Notes under the pieces: generated by a model
Database searches by the model: none
Seen by the model: only the letters and a program-made list of their open reading frames with translations
Told to the model about the DNA's origin: nothing
Made by a program: the position numbers and the translations under genes
Shown: positions 19,859 through 26,848 of the stretch, one piece after another
Layout of the letters: each line of letters begins with the position of its first letter
Position numbering within the stretch: position 1 is the stretch's first letter
DNA from: Methylophilales bacterium HTCC2181
GTDB lineage: Bacteria > Pseudomonadota > Gammaproteobacteria > Burkholderiales > Methylophilaceae
Assembly: GCA_000168995.1 (NCBI GenBank)
Contig: AAUX01000001.1
Span: 310,001-374,000 of the forward strand
Reading direction: 5' to 3'
Length of the DNA: 64,000 bases

Positions 19859-21823
19859 ATGGCACGACCTAAAAAAAATCCAGAAGATAAAAAAACCAAA
19901 CGCGTAACACGCGTCAAGAAATTAAAAGACTTATATCTTAAAGATGCGGTAAATAATCCTGAAGAGGCAGAAAATAGACGCCTGCAGTTGAAAGCTCTCA
20001 TTATCATGGGTAAAGAAAGAGGCTACCTTACTTACGCAGAAATTAATGATCATCTTCCCGATGAGGTGTCGGAAAGCGAACAAGTAGAAGGTATCATCGG
20101 CATTATTAACGACATGGGCATTATGGTCTATGAGCAAGCACCTGATGCAGAATCGTTACTAATGTCTGACGACCGTGCACCAGTAACGGACGAAGAGGCG
20201 GCTGAGGAAGCTGAACAGGCTCTTGCAACTGTAGACTCTGAGTTTGGCCGAACAACCGATCCTGTAAGAATGTACATGAGGGAGATGGGCACCGTAGACC
20301 TACTAACTCGTGAAGGCGAGATTGAAATTGCTAAAAGAATTGAAGATGGATTAAGGCATATGGTCCAGGCCATTTCGGCATGCCCGGGTATTATTGATGA
20401 TCTTATGAATATGGCCGAGAAGGTTAAGAAAGAAGAGTTAGGGGTAGAAGAGTTTGTTGATGGCTTGATTGATATGGAAGCCGAAAGGGAACTGGCTAAA
20501 GTAGAAGCGGCGTTGGCGCAAACAGATGATGAAGAATCTGATGAGGATGACGACGACGAAAATGATTCAGGAAAAGCAAGTGGAATGTCGGCTGAGGACT
20601 TAGCAATACTGACAAAAGAAGTACTTTCCCGATTCGGAAAAATTAAAAGGGCGCATAAAAAGTTATCTGAACTAAGAGAGCAAAAAAAATGGACTGATGA
20701 TGAAGAATATAAGAAACATCAAGACATTATTTTAAAAGAACTCATTAATTTCAGGTTCTCCTCCAAGTTTGTTGAGGTTCTATGTGACAAAGTAAGAACA
20801 TTTGTGAAGCAAATCAGGGGTCACGAAAGAGCTGTCATGGAATTCTGTGTGGAAGAATCTAAGATGCCTAGATCCCATTTTATTAAATCATTTCCTGGTA
20901 ATGAAACAAACCTTAAATGGTTGAAAGAGGAAATTAAGTCAGATAAGAAGTATGTTGAGAGCTTAGAAAAGCTTAAACACTCTATCCTAGACCAACAGTC
21001 TAAACTGATTGCTTTAGAAGAACTGGCTGGTATACCTATTAAGAACTTTAAAGAAATTAATAGGCATATGACTACGGGTGAAGCCCGAGCGAAGAGAGCA
21101 AAAAGAGAGATGATTGAAGCTAACCTTCGCCTCGTTATTTCAATCGCTAAAAAATACACTAACCGAGGACTCCAATTTCTTGATCTTATCCAAGAAGGCA
21201 ATATCGGATTGATGAAAGCGGTTGATAAATTTGAATATCGAAGAGGATATAAATTTTCTACCTATGCAACCTGGTGGATTAGGCAAGCCATTACACGATC
21301 TATCGCGGATCAAGCAAGAACGATCAGAATTCCTGTGCATATGATTGAGACTATCAATAAAATGAACCGTATCTCTCGACAGATCCTTCAGTCTACCGGT
21401 CAGGAACCAGAACCATCAGAGTTAGCTGAAAAAATGGAAATGCCTGAAGAAAAAATTAGAAAAATTCTTAAAATATCAAAAGAGCCAATCTCGATGGAAA
21501 CACCAATTGGTGATGATGAGGATTCACATCTGGGCGACTTCATAGAAGATGTTGGTACATTGACACCTGATGATGCAGCAGTTTATGGCAGCCTTAGAAG
21601 CGTAACCTCTGAAATATTAGAAGGCCTTACTCCAAGAGAGGCTAAGGTATTAAGAATGCGCTTTGGTATTGAAATGAATACTGACCATACTTTAGAGGAG
21701 GTTGGTAAGCAGTTCGATGTGACTAGAGAACGTATTCGTCAGATAGAAGCTAAGGCGTTGCGAAAATTAAGACATCCTACCCGCTCGGAAAGATTGAAGA
21801 GTTTCTTGGAGGGTAAAGAGTAG
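19859..21823 (+). CDS. rpoD: Primary sigma factor RpoD (sigma-70)
   Basis: 654 residues with region 1.1 at the N-terminus, an acidic non-conserved region (about residues 220-245, rich in Asp/Glu), and complete regions 1.2 to 4.2. Region 2.4 has [20 protein letters not shown], and region 4.2 ends with [20 protein letters not shown]. It is the housekeeping sigma factor. A tRNA gene begins five bases after its stop codon, so the two are probably on one transcript. Confidence 0.98.
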
Positions 21824-23746: not shown

Positions 23747-25480
23747 TTAATTAAGCTTGGGATTAACCTTAAGGAACAGATAATCAATACCATGATATTG
23801 CAAATGTTTGATATCGTTGGTTAGCCCATAAAGTAATTTTAGGGACAGCTTACTCTCAATATTATCCTCCCCAATATCTTTTATTGCCGCTGCTGCTGAT
23901 TCTGCATTCACTCCTGATGGCGCTGATATAAACTCTAACTCAACCTCATCGCCCTCTTGATAGATACGGATATGCACGGTAACTTTATTTTTACGATTAT
24001 TTTTTTCTTGGTTTTCAATCAAAAAGTTTAATCCTTCCTCGGCAATCAACATTAATTTATTTTCCCACTTTTTTTGCCATTGGTTTTTCTTGGAAAAATT
24101 ATTAATTAAGTGGTTGATTTTTTCTATGCTCGCAATGTGAAGGGGAACGGAAAGCTTGTTCTTCGCCCTTTTTTTAAGCGAGAACAAGAACATGATAAGG
24201 ATTGCTGTTAAGCCACCCGAGGTTGTTCCATTGGAAAGGAAAATCTGCATGCCTTCAGGGAAAGCTTCATTGAATAAAAATCCACCTTGGAATCCAACTC
24301 CCGCAAAAAAACCAAAGCATACCGCCATCAACGCTTCAAAAGATAGCTTGGTCTGATTGACCATTTGTAGACCATGTCCAAATAATAAGATGATAATAAC
24401 CAGAATATACCCAGCCGCAACCGGGCTAGGGATTGCACTGATTAAAGCAATTAATTTCGGCGAAAGAGCAAATAATATCATGAATAAACCACCATAAAAA
24501 CCAACCCTTAAGGCAGCAACTTTGGTGATCTCCATAACGCCAATACTCATAGAGTATACGGTATTCGGAACCGATCCTAAAATACCTGCCAAGAAACTGC
24601 CTACTCCATCTGCATTAATTGCTCCTTGTATGGCTCTAAAGTCGATAGGCCGTGCTTTTCTATAAGAAAATTTTTGTACAGCAATACCGTCAGCATAAGT
24701 TTCTATACAACCAACAAACGTGATTAATACAAATGCCGGAAGCAACGCCCAGAAACTCTCGGTGAATGTAAAATCAAAACCTGGCCAATGATTATCAGGT
24801 AGACCAATCCAATCCGCAGTTATTACCTTAGAAAAATCAACTAACCCTACCTGATAAGAGTAAATAGATCCTATGACGATACCAATTAAGGGTGCCCACA
24901 GCCGTGAAGTTTTACTTCCAAATAGTGAAATTAATAGGATGGGAATCAATGTGGCAAGAAAGATATAAGGAACCGCCATATTGCCTACAAACTCGGCAGG
25001 AACCCTTTTTAACATTGACCATACTACCGGAGCGACATTAAGCGCCATGAGCATAAGCACGACTCCACCTATGGCAGGAGTTAACACCTTTCTTAAGGGC
25101 CCCATTTGTGAAGTAAAAATAAATGTTGCGAGCGACGCAACAGCAACCAGTGTAAGGAGGAGGGATGTCCCTCCTAGCTCCAATGCTGAAACGGCTACGG
25201 AAATAAAAGCAACATTTGATCCCACAAAAAGGAGATTTCGACCGCCAATAATTCCAAAACGACTAGCCTGCAACCAGGTTGATACCCCGCAAGCAAGAAC
25301 AGCTGCAAATACAAGCCAACTAATTTGGCCAGCACCTAGGCCAGCTTCTCGTCCCACGATAAGCGGTGTTAGCATAATACCAGTCACGATCATAATTGTT
25401 ACTTGCAACCCAAGACCAGCAGAAAGTAAATGGGCAGGCTTTTCGTCAGGCTCAAAACGCACTATATTATTATCACTCAT
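23747..25480 (-). CDS. NCS2-type permease fused to a degenerate RsbW-like ATPase domain
   Basis: 577 residues from ATG 25480 (a TTG lies 18 bp upstream). Residues to about 430 are a nucleobase:cation symporter-2 permease with about 12-14 spans; IETYADGIAVQKFS and the GSVPNTVYSMSIGVMEITKVA stretch match the NCS2 signature region. After a basic linker, residues about 440-577 have the layout of an anti-sigma HATPase domain, but the Mg-binding Asn is replaced by Phe (AEEGLNFLIEN) and the DxG box is gone (SAPSG). It is divergent from a STAS gene. Substrate unknown (purine, uracil or other). Confidence 0.78.
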   Translation of the reverse strand: MSDNNIVRFEPDEKPAHLLSAGLGLQVTIMIVTGIMLTPLIVGREAGLGAGQISWLVFAAVLACGVSTWLQASRFGIIGGRNLLFVGSNVAFISVAVSALELGGTSLLLTLVAVASLATFIFTSQMGPLRKVLTPAIGGVVLMLMALNVAPVVWSMLKRVPAEFVGNMAVPYIFLATLIPILLISLFGSKTSRLWAPLIGIVIGSIYSYQVGLVDFSKVITADWIGLPDNHWPGFDFTFTESFWALLPAFVLITFVGCIETYADGIAVQKFSYRKARPIDFRAIQGAINADGVGSFLAGILGSVPNTVYSMSIGVMEITKVAALRVGFYGGLFMILFALSPKLIALISAIPSPVAAGYILVIIILLFGHGLQMVNQTKLSFEALMAVCFGFFAGVGFQGGFLFNEAFPEGMQIFLSNGTTSGGLTAILIMFLFSLKKRAKNKLSVPLHIASIEKINHLINNFSKKNQWQKKWENKLMLIAEEGLNFLIENQEKNNRKNKVTVHIRIYQEGDEVELEFISAPSGVNAESAAAAIKDIGEDNIESKLSLKLLYGLTNDIKHLQYHGIDYLFLKVNPKLN

Positions 25481-25613
25481 ATTTAAAATCCTAGTCAAAA
25501 AAACATTTTTAATCTATATTAAATGATATTAACTATTAATATAAATTTTATTTTGGTTATTTAAAGGCATACATCACTGCATACTTATTAACAAACTAGG
25601 CAACATATATAAA

Positions 25614-25949
25614 ATGATAGAAATTAACCATGAAGTAAAAAATGACACCCTTATTATTAATCCTGTTGGGCGCCTTGACGGTTTGACGTCGAAAAAATTT
25701 ATGGAAGATACAGAGGGTCTTATAAAATTAAATTCTGCGCGTGTAATTATTAATTTAGATTCCCTTGATTACATCAGTTCAGAAGGGCTTCGATCTATTT
25801 TGACTACGGCAAAAACGATTAAATCTGAGGGTGGAAAGTTTGGCTTATGCTCTCCTCTAGAAGGAGTGAAAGAGGTTTTAGAGATAAGTGGTTTTGGTGC
25901 GATGCTTGGAGTCTATGAAAGCTTGGATCTTGCCTTAAGTAGTATCTAA
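25614..25949 (+). CDS. STAS-domain anti-sigma factor antagonist
   Basis: 111 residues, a complete single STAS domain of the SpoIIAA/RsbV kind. The loop holding the phosphorylatable serine reads DYISSEGLR; alignment to the DSSG loop of SpoIIAA puts the phosphosite at Ser56. VGRLDGLTS is the usual beta-2 element. Such proteins bind an RsbW kinase when unphosphorylated. The gene is divergent from the permease-RsbW fusion with a 133-bp gap, and a stand-alone kinase is encoded 486 bp downstream. Confidence 0.88.
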   Translation: MIEINHEVKNDTLIINPVGRLDGLTSKKFMEDTEGLIKLNSARVIINLDSLDYISSEGLRSILTTAKTIKSEGGKFGLCSPLEGVKEVLEISGFGAMLGVYESLDLALSSI

Positions 25950-26027
25950 ATATCGTTTCAGAATAATGCCCAAAAAATTAATTAGCTGTTCTACTCAATG
26001 CCTGCAATGCTTATTTTTCAGTAGATG

Positions 26028-26381
26028 CTAAGTAAGGACGAAACTCTCCGCTTCCTGCTGATTCGCAAAGAAAGAAGCAAATTGATCTAAACCGGCAAGA
26101 CATAATGTGGAGTAAATCTCCTCATTACAATCTAAGAAACACATTTTTGCAGAGCGGTTATGGACTGACTTAATAGCTAAGATTAAAGTCCGAATACCTA
26201 TTGAGGCAACGTAGGTCACATCTTGCATATTAATAATTATTGCTTGTCTTGGTGCGGCTGTCATCCCACTCAATTTAAGGCTAATTTGGTCTGTCCCTAG
26301 GATATCTAACCTGCCTGACAGGCTGATTAAAAAAGCACCAGATGACAGCTCTTTTTCTTCTATATTCATTGCACTATTCAC
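26028..26381 (-). CDS. Second STAS-domain antagonist protein
   Basis: 117 residues of a STAS domain (SGRLDILGTDQISL, AIIINMQDVTYVASIGIRTLI). The aligned phosphosite is Ser60 in YVASIGIR. Compared with the other STAS protein the flanking residues differ, so the two may answer to different kinases. The gene is convergent with the first STAS gene and divergent from the RsbW-like kinase gene, with a 53-bp gap. Confidence 0.85.
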   Translation of the reverse strand: MNSAMNIEEKELSSGAFLISLSGRLDILGTDQISLKLSGMTAAPRQAIIINMQDVTYVASIGIRTLILAIKSVHNRSAKMCFLDCNEEIYSTLCLAGLDQFASFFANQQEAESFVLT

Positions 26382-26434
26382 AAAATAATTTCATTCATCA
26401 TACTATTTATGAAAAAATATGACTACAATTAGTT

Positions 26435-26848
26435 ATGGTAAAGCCAAATAAAATGGTAATTTGCATGGGTGATGATTGGGCTGAGTTAACAGCGCTAACA
26501 GAAAAGTTGACCCTATTTTTTCGTACCCATCAAAACGTTAACATGATTAATCCTGTTAATTTACTTTTAGAGGAGCTTTACTCCAATACCCTTAATTACG
26601 GGCAATGCGGTAAAGCGCATGTAATTATCACACTTGAAATGCGTGATCATGAATTGCTGATTCACTACGAGGACAATGGCATCTCTTTTAACCCTTTTGA
26701 AGAGGCAAAGCAACCTGACCTTGGAAGCACTTTGGAAGAGCGGGCCATTGGGGGCTTAGGCATTCATTTTATAAAAAATATGACTGATTCTCAACAATAT
26801 GAACGCATAGAAGGCATCAATAAGATCACCTTAAGAAAGTCTTGCTAA
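26435..26848 (+). CDS. RsbW-like serine kinase / anti-sigma factor
   Basis: 137 residues of the HATPase_c fold. The N box is intact (LLLEELYSNTLNYG, Asn51), as are the Asp80-Asn81-Gly82 motif (YEDNGISFNPFE) and the Gly106-Gly107-Leu108-Gly109 motif (IGGLGIHFIKNM). An active kinase that phosphorylates STAS proteins is therefore expected. Its usual partner sigma factor is not in the cluster, so the final target is open. No PP2C phosphatase lies nearby. Confidence 0.87.
   Translation: MVKPNKMVICMGDDWAELTALTEKLTLFFRTHQNVNMINPVNLLLEELYSNTLNYGQCGKAHVIITLEMRDHELLIHYEDNGISFNPFEEAKQPDLGSTLEERAIGGLGIHFIKNMTDSQQYERIEGINKITLRKSC

Follow-up and report, generated by a model that had tools for sequence, protein, structure and literature searches.

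An NCS2-type permease with an RsbW-like pseudo-kinase tail in a putative partner-switching locus of Methylophilales bacterium HTCC2181

STAS and STAS-like proteins can act in partner switches whose targets are not sigma factors, as described for SiaC, HsbA and BgrV (accessible part of PMC8457831). A STAS protein can also control a transporter, the precedent being the free STAS protein MlaB, which binds the transporter subunit MlaF and whose binding is weakened by a phosphomimic at the conserved STAS Thr (accessible part of PMC7367683). Here we describe a locus in a 64-kb stretch of the 1.30 Mb genome of Methylophilales bacterium HTCC2181 (G000:C3:310001-374000; this whole stretch is called the window below). 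In this locus an NCS2-type permease, fused at its C-terminus to an RsbW-like domain devoid of ATP-binding motifs, is encoded beside two STAS proteins (STAS A and STAS B) and an RsbW-like serine kinase. We regard as evenly balanced the proposal that these genes belong to a partner-switching pathway with a membrane transporter as its target, in which unphosphorylated STAS A would dock on the pseudo-kinase tail and switch transport. The parts are of known kinds and their combination appears to be new; no description of an NCS2 permease with an RsbW-like tail was found among the open-licence PMC papers listed in searches aimed at such a fusion.

The permease and its RsbW-like tail

Profile comparisons, a search of PDB sequences and a predicted structure all assigned the C-terminal ~135 residues of the permease (23747..24157, minus strand) to the RsbW/SpoIIAB fold. 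In profile-profile comparison the tail profile matched a profile of eight kinases with an E of 5.5e-6 over 126 columns, and gave no match to a STAS profile used as control. With a kinase hidden Markov model (HMM) the window tail scored 15.2 bits; among 1,667 scored shuffles the highest value was 9.2 bits. On the profile-profile match, the negative STAS control and the shuffle test, a chance likeness to HATPases was rejected. The top match of the window tail among 177,635 PDB sequences was RsbW (6m36), with a weak E of 0.0056. In Pfam no separate match to the window tail appeared at E values up to 1. The tail of the relative in genome G193 matched HATPase_c_2 at E 6.5e-5, under the curated cut-off in the direct search; in the genome scan the tails of G154 and G193 both reached it. 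Anti-sigma kinases were the first matches of the predicted structure of the window tail, a model built on two near-identical sequences and the only usable one of five (mean predicted local distance difference test score, pLDDT, of 65 vs. 34-39). The prediction for the full-length permease (mean pLDDT 35, predicted template modeling score 0.20) was not used.

Profile alignments of the window tail showed Phe492 (numbered from the upstream TTG) at the position of the Mg-binding Asn, S-A-P in place of D-N-G, and K-L-S in place of G-L-G. These comparisons confirm, at the level of sequence, that the tail has the anti-sigma HATPase fold and lacks the N-box Asn, DxG and GxG motifs for ATP binding. An earlier sequence-only reading had proposed such a domain with the Mg-binding Asn and the DxG box lost, to be abandoned if the C-terminus showed no HATPase fold; the fold was seen in both the predicted structure and the profiles, and both glycine boxes turned out to be lost.

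The membrane domain (24158..25480, minus strand) matched the Pfam family Xan_ur_permease (PF00860) with an E of 9e-51 and 173 bits (cut-off 27), in agreement with the NCS2-type identity assigned in the sequence-only reading. Among solved structures it is closest to uracil and uric acid-xanthine permeases, with the E. coli uracil permease at E 1.5e-17 in the PDB. Pfam gave no STAS match within the permease and a fused STAS domain of the SulP/SLC26 type was thus not encountered. The membrane-domain tree comprised 440 columns and 46 sequences, namely 24 fused permeases and 22 of the 32 unfused ones; the permease of G089 was counted as fused by its membrane domain, its tail being cut off by the contig end, so that 23 tails were seen. 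All 24 fused membrane domains split from the 22 unfused ones with a support of 0.988 and formed two branches, branch I of the window type (nine sequences, support 1.0) and branch II (15 sequences, 0.886).

In UapA, E356 on transmembrane helix (TM) 8 and Q408 on TM10 hold xanthine and correspond to E241 and E290 of UraA; the motif of the nucleobase-ascorbate transporter (NAT) family on TM10 is Q/E/P-N-X-G-X4-T, and the ascorbate carrier SVCT2 is likewise without Gln/Glu (accessible part of PMC3405029). The window permease reads M-S-I-G-V-M-E-I-T on TM10, where Met-Ser (M317-S318, TTG numbering; 24545..24550, minus strand) replaces Gln/Glu-Asn and the NAT signature is absent. The Gln/Glu-Asn pair was kept in none of the 24 fused permeases vs. 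10 of the 11 unfused ones examined; Asn alone was retained in three fused sequences, and G089 has Pro-Ser. The TM8 Glu (E266 in the window, TTG numbering) was present in all nine sequences of branch I and in none of the 15 of branch II, six of which have Asp. The window permease retains both the TM8 Glu and the Asp.

As the TM10 pair is gone, a standard nucleobase is an unlikely substrate. Since SVCT2 also lacks Gln/Glu, loss of the pair may mean changed specificity or lost transport, and the data fit either. The fused NCS2 branch probably should not carry the name xanthine/uracil permeases; its members on plasmids bear only the annotation "solute carrier family 23 protein". Two fused permeases (L131:8581-11100 and L132:8527-11058; 839 and 843 aa) have an extra N-terminal GAF domain.

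Partner-switching genes and their distribution

All four open reading frames (ORFs) of the cluster were found where the sequence-only reading had placed them, and its descriptions of the STAS antagonists and of the kinase were borne out by the sequences. The permease ORF including the upstream TTG spans 23747-25498 on the minus strand. The ATG at 25480, giving 577 aa, is the more likely start than the TTG at 25498 because homologues begin at that Met. A divergent intergenic stretch (25481..25613), with the same divergent layout in G018, G023, G024 and G026, separates the permease from STAS A (25614..25949, plus strand), an RsbV/SpoIIAA-like protein (STAS E 1.2e-16; TIGR00377 above cut-off) with an intact phosphorylatable Ser56. 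STAS B (26028..26381, minus strand; STAS E 5.4e-13) has an intact Ser60. The kinase (26435..26848, plus strand; HATPase_c_2 E 5.7e-12) has complete ATP-binding motifs: EELYSN at 46-51 (N51), EDNG at 79-82 (D80) and GGLG at 106-109. A near-twin locus with a 99% identical permease is present in the record "Methylophilales bacterium UBA4017".

STAS A and the kinase are 5-8 bp apart or overlapping in four genomes of the genus. STAS B sits between them on the opposite strand in the window, and an arrangement with STAS B between STAS A and the kinase was seen only in the window genome and the near-twin G024, where STAS B and a glutaminase gene stand in line between the two. Among 61 genomes searched, the only close relative of STAS B was that of G024 (91%), followed by G034 (33%). 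As STAS A and the kinase are otherwise a tight pair, STAS B is most likely an insertion of this lineage outside the core, and STAS A the core antagonist; on the same grounds the option that both STAS genes are core was rejected. In G193 a second STAS-like ORF (L136:1759-2058, 99 aa, E 2.5e-11) lies just ahead of the STAS gene, so that two STAS genes are found there too.

Within the genus, the permease was found in six of 31 genomes, and a close kinase (E<1e-30) together with STAS A in exactly the same six; four other genomes gave only weak kinase matches (E 7e-4 to 0.005), the frames being 583-601 aa long. The permease is linked with STAS/kinase genes in five of the six loci, and is unlinked, on another contig, in G019. 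SpoIIE above cut-off was present in 5/6 permease genomes vs. 4/25 others. Because the SpoIIE above cut-off in G023 belongs to a different switch, the pathway-type phosphatase count is four of six (G000, G018, G019 and G026). This second partner switch, seen in G001, G015 and G023 (L094, L095, L097), consists of a HATPase kinase and a ~407-aa SpoIIE protein and adjoins apparent type IV pilus genes; G001 and G015 also have a STAS-looking protein of ~220 aa there (STAS and pilus names were given by eye).

The single SpoIIE phosphatase of the window's genome is a REC-SpoIIE protein (G000:C3:854384-855547, domain E 1.2e-37), which is unlinked, ~480 kb beyond the window end. It directly follows a sensor kinase of 875 aa (HisKA-HATPase-REC-REC-Hpt) whose front is PAS-like (PAS below cut-off). 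Elsewhere, SpoIIE adjoins the fused permease or the STAS-kinase pair (G018, G019, G026, G193, G070, G410 and G154). Permease, STAS, kinase, sensor kinase and REC-SpoIIE are all in one locus in G026; in G019 STAS, kinase, sensor and phosphatase are together, with the permease on the separate contig. A 401-aa protein of G018 joins a sensor-like front directly to SpoIIE (PAS below cut-off), and in G193, which belongs to another family, a single 1349-aa PAS-PAS-HisKA-HATPase-REC-Hpt-REC-SpoIIE protein stands beside STAS, kinase and fused permease. By these fusions the sensor, the phosphatase, STAS, the kinase and the permease fall into a single line.

Fusions were surveyed in 101 relatives, 399 order-level genomes (G070 permease and window-type tail), 398 phylum-level genomes (two tail profiles) and a plasmid collection. 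At least 17 fusion loci were found outside the genus; this count is a lower bound, as at order level the G070 permease search took in three or fewer candidates per genome at an E threshold of 1e-30, at phylum level the search for the branch II tail covered no more than 10 of up to 111 candidates per genome, one of two places in the Azospirillum plasmid record was read, and at several loci a contig end shortened the flanks. The genome loci are those of G070, G089, G154, G160, G193, G235, G347 (split by frame breaks), G405, G410, G539, G585 and G745 (three loci, four permeases), and the plasmid loci those of Azospirillum thermophilum, Candidatus Thiodictyon syntrophicum (two permeases) and Pseudoroseomonas cervicalis. 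The G193 tail gave no match in the plasmid collection. Partner-switch genes were nearby at five of the 17 loci (G070, G193, G410, G539 and G154), with kinase, STAS and SpoIIE all present in the first four. Homologous fusions are thus found in the company of STAS/RsbW genes, as the sequence-only reading had required, with linkage in 5/6 genus loci and 5/17 elsewhere. A kinase, STAS or SpoIIE gene lay within 1.5 kb of 3/7 fused vs. 0/32 unfused NCS2 genes (Fisher p 0.004). A strong RsbW-type match (E<1e-10) was present in 18/18 fusion genomes vs. 6/26 genomes without fusion, the threshold having been set after the data were seen and the 26 genomes chosen by hand.

Weak matches to the window-type tail profile in G208, G295 and G032 proved to be RsbW-type kinases beside STAS and SpoIIE genes and were rejected as fusions; other weak tail-profile matches (G244, G403, G631, G780 and G371) were not counted as fusions, and the G474 stretch matched none of six HMMs. 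Near the two fused permeases of Thiodictyon, the pseudo-kinase tail also occurs as a free-standing copy of 173 aa, annotated as hypothetical, beside a STAS gene (L141:1536-2057, NZ_CP020371). Genes for guanine deaminase and urate hydroxylase are found near the fused permease of Azospirillum thermophilum (L140, NZ_CP029358), which hints at a purine-related context.

Further genes recur around the clusters. A gene of the Na_Pi_cotrans family (517-554 aa) was found near the cluster in six genomes from both branches: L074:5431-6984 (G018), L073:137-1690 (G023), L071:6303-7856 (G019), L136:8729-10342 (G193), L160:7113-8777 (G154) and L161:9538-11130 (G539). In G018, G023, G019 and G193 it is accompanied by a homologous ~230-aa protein of unknown family. 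Glutaminase genes are beside the cluster in four genomes, at L136:522-2021 (G193), L071:7911-8885 (G019), L072:6503-7471 (G026) and L069:7665-8648 (G024); no paper linking glutaminase with STAS was among those listed in a literature search. An alpha-acetolactate decarboxylase gene adjoins the permease in G018 and G023, and is beside the STAS-kinase pair in G019. Homologues of these Na_Pi_cotrans, glutaminase and acetolactate decarboxylase genes were not found in the window or in the G070 or G410 loci.

The sequence-only reading had stated that no sigma factor is encoded here, which is literally wrong: the housekeeping rpoD (19859-21823), after dnaG, is 1.9 kb from the permease. A sigma-70 homologue was absent from the flanks read in 20 of 21 other loci, the sole exception being the near-twin G024 (a factor of the extracytoplasmic function, ECF, type could be missed). 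As its proximity is not conserved, rpoD was rejected as a part of the system.

Proposed circuit and alternatives

The simplest reading of the conserved gene set would be a coupling between a STAS protein and the pseudo-kinase, which would bind the unphosphorylated STAS protein and either gate transport or report on it. In this model the sensor kinase would feed the response-regulator-SpoIIE phosphatase, which would dephosphorylate STAS A, and the RsbW-like kinase would rephosphorylate it. Unphosphorylated STAS A would dock on the ATP-dead tail of the permease and thereby turn transport on or off, while phosphorylated STAS A would be unable to dock. As the tail is RsbW-like without ATP motifs, it likely binds the unphosphorylated STAS protein without modifying it. 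The constant parts of the linked loci are STAS A, the kinase and the fused permease, and the input to the phosphatase differs by locus: REC-SpoIIE in G070, G539 and G154, PAS-like-SpoIIE in G018, the sensor-kinase fusion in G193, and ammonium-transporter-SpoIIE in G410. Because the permease stays while the phosphatase inputs change, it is best read as the output. In the G410 locus an Amt domain is joined to SpoIIE (L133:11333-13501) directly after kinase, STAS and fused permease, and ammonium is a possible input of that switch. More tentatively, and with slightly less than even confidence, we propose a class of circuits in which a dead anti-sigma kinase on an NCS2-fold permease would be the STAS receptor, and the circuit would gate a solute that is not a standard nucleobase.

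Several observations weigh against the docking model. Six of 11 tails did not exceed the best shuffle (with scores of 0.1 bits or less in five; the G070 score was not reported). As five of these six are from branch II, the HATPase assignment of that branch is weaker for individual tails and is based mainly on the joint profile. With the nucleobase pair lost, the membrane domain could also have ceased to transport. The co-occurrence counts ignore shared descent. Within the genus, SpoIIE is also found in four permease-free genomes, and G011 has a REC-SpoIIE of 61% identity, yet no permease, STAS A or close kinase. G024 is without SpoIIE (genome 85% complete), and G023 has its own phosphatase gene cut by the contig end, the SpoIIE above cut-off being that of the other switch. 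Outside the genus, no STAS, kinase or SpoIIE was found in the flanks read at 10 of the 17 loci (G745, three loci; G585, G160, G235, G405, G347, Azospirillum and Pseudoroseomonas). The Thiodictyon locus has STAS as its sole partner-switch gene, G154 has SpoIIE alone before the contig end, and the G089 locus is cut by the contig end. In G585 the frame with the RsbW-type match is 408 aa long and may encode something other than a free kinase.

The permease could instead be the input, a transceptor that senses a solute while its dead tail soaks up or releases STAS A and so tunes glutaminase, the Na/Pi-type transporter or an unknown regulator. The absence of the TM10 pair from all 24 fused permeases and of the TM8 Glu from branch II (Asp in six of its 15 members), the GAF domain ahead of the membrane domain in two relatives, and the recurring glutaminase and Na_Pi_cotrans neighbors, which could be effectors, all suit such a sensor. 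It is nevertheless unlikely: the phosphatase already has dedicated inputs (PAS, sensor kinase, REC and Amt), homologues of the recurring neighbors are missing from the window, G070 and G410 loci, and both the TM8 Glu and the Asp are retained in the window protein. A conventional partner switch, acting on a sigma factor or other regulator elsewhere with the fused permease as a neighbor of unrelated role, would suit the standard RsbW/RsbV character of the kinase and STAS A, the position of rpoD 1.9 kb away and the presence of a close REC-SpoIIE in the permease-free G011. We consider this quite unlikely, given that the permease tail is itself of the RsbW type, that the same six of 31 genomes contain the permease, STAS A and the close kinase even when these are unlinked (G019), and that only the near-twin among the 21 other loci has a sigma-70 homologue nearby, with the same reservation on ECF-type factors.

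It is improbable, finally, that the tail came from an RsbW-like gene but now serves dimerization or stability alone, unconnected with the switch. Anti-sigma HATPases are dimers, and the 10 of 17 outside loci without linked STAS, kinase or SpoIIE genes would fit this explanation. So would the need of SLC26 transporters for their STAS domains in stabilization and function (accessible part of PMC8256260). The repeated linkage in different families (G070, G410, G539, G193 and the genus) vs. none of the 32 unfused controls argues against it.

If the coupling of STAS A to the permease tail is true, transporters would join the short list of non-sigma targets of partner switches, and pseudo-kinase anti-sigma domains would gain a use as docking receptors. 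The locus would also offer a small system for direct tests of the control of a transporter by a STAS protein, a matter unsettled for the STAS domains of SLC26 and for MlaB.

Comparison with known systems

The set resembles the RsbU-RsbV-RsbW and SpoIIE-SpoIIAA-SpoIIAB switches of sigma-B and sigma-F in its SpoIIE-type phosphatase, its STAS protein with a phosphorylatable Ser, its HATPase Ser kinase and the fold of the permease tail. Unlike in those switches, no dedicated sigma factor was found nearby, and a permease carries a further RsbW-like domain, which is ATP-dead. A candidate target other than a sigma factor is shared with SiaABCD, HptB-HsbR-HsbA-HsbD and BgrSTUWV, in which the target is a diguanylate cyclase, whereas the candidate target here is a transporter with an RsbW-like tail. 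The membrane domain is shared with the NCS2/NAT permeases UraA, XanQ and UapA, from which the fused permeases differ by the absence of the TM10 pair in 24/24, the extra C-terminal domain and the separate branch. SulP/SLC26 transporters are of the same membrane fold class as NCS2 permeases and are a mirror image of the arrangement described here: the STAS side is found at the C-terminus of SulP, and the RsbW side at the C-terminus of the window permease. The MlaB-MlaF pair differs in that its transporter subunit is an ABC ATPase, with neither an NCS2 permease nor a HATPase docking domain, and in that phosphorylation of MlaB is not shown in the accessible part of its description.

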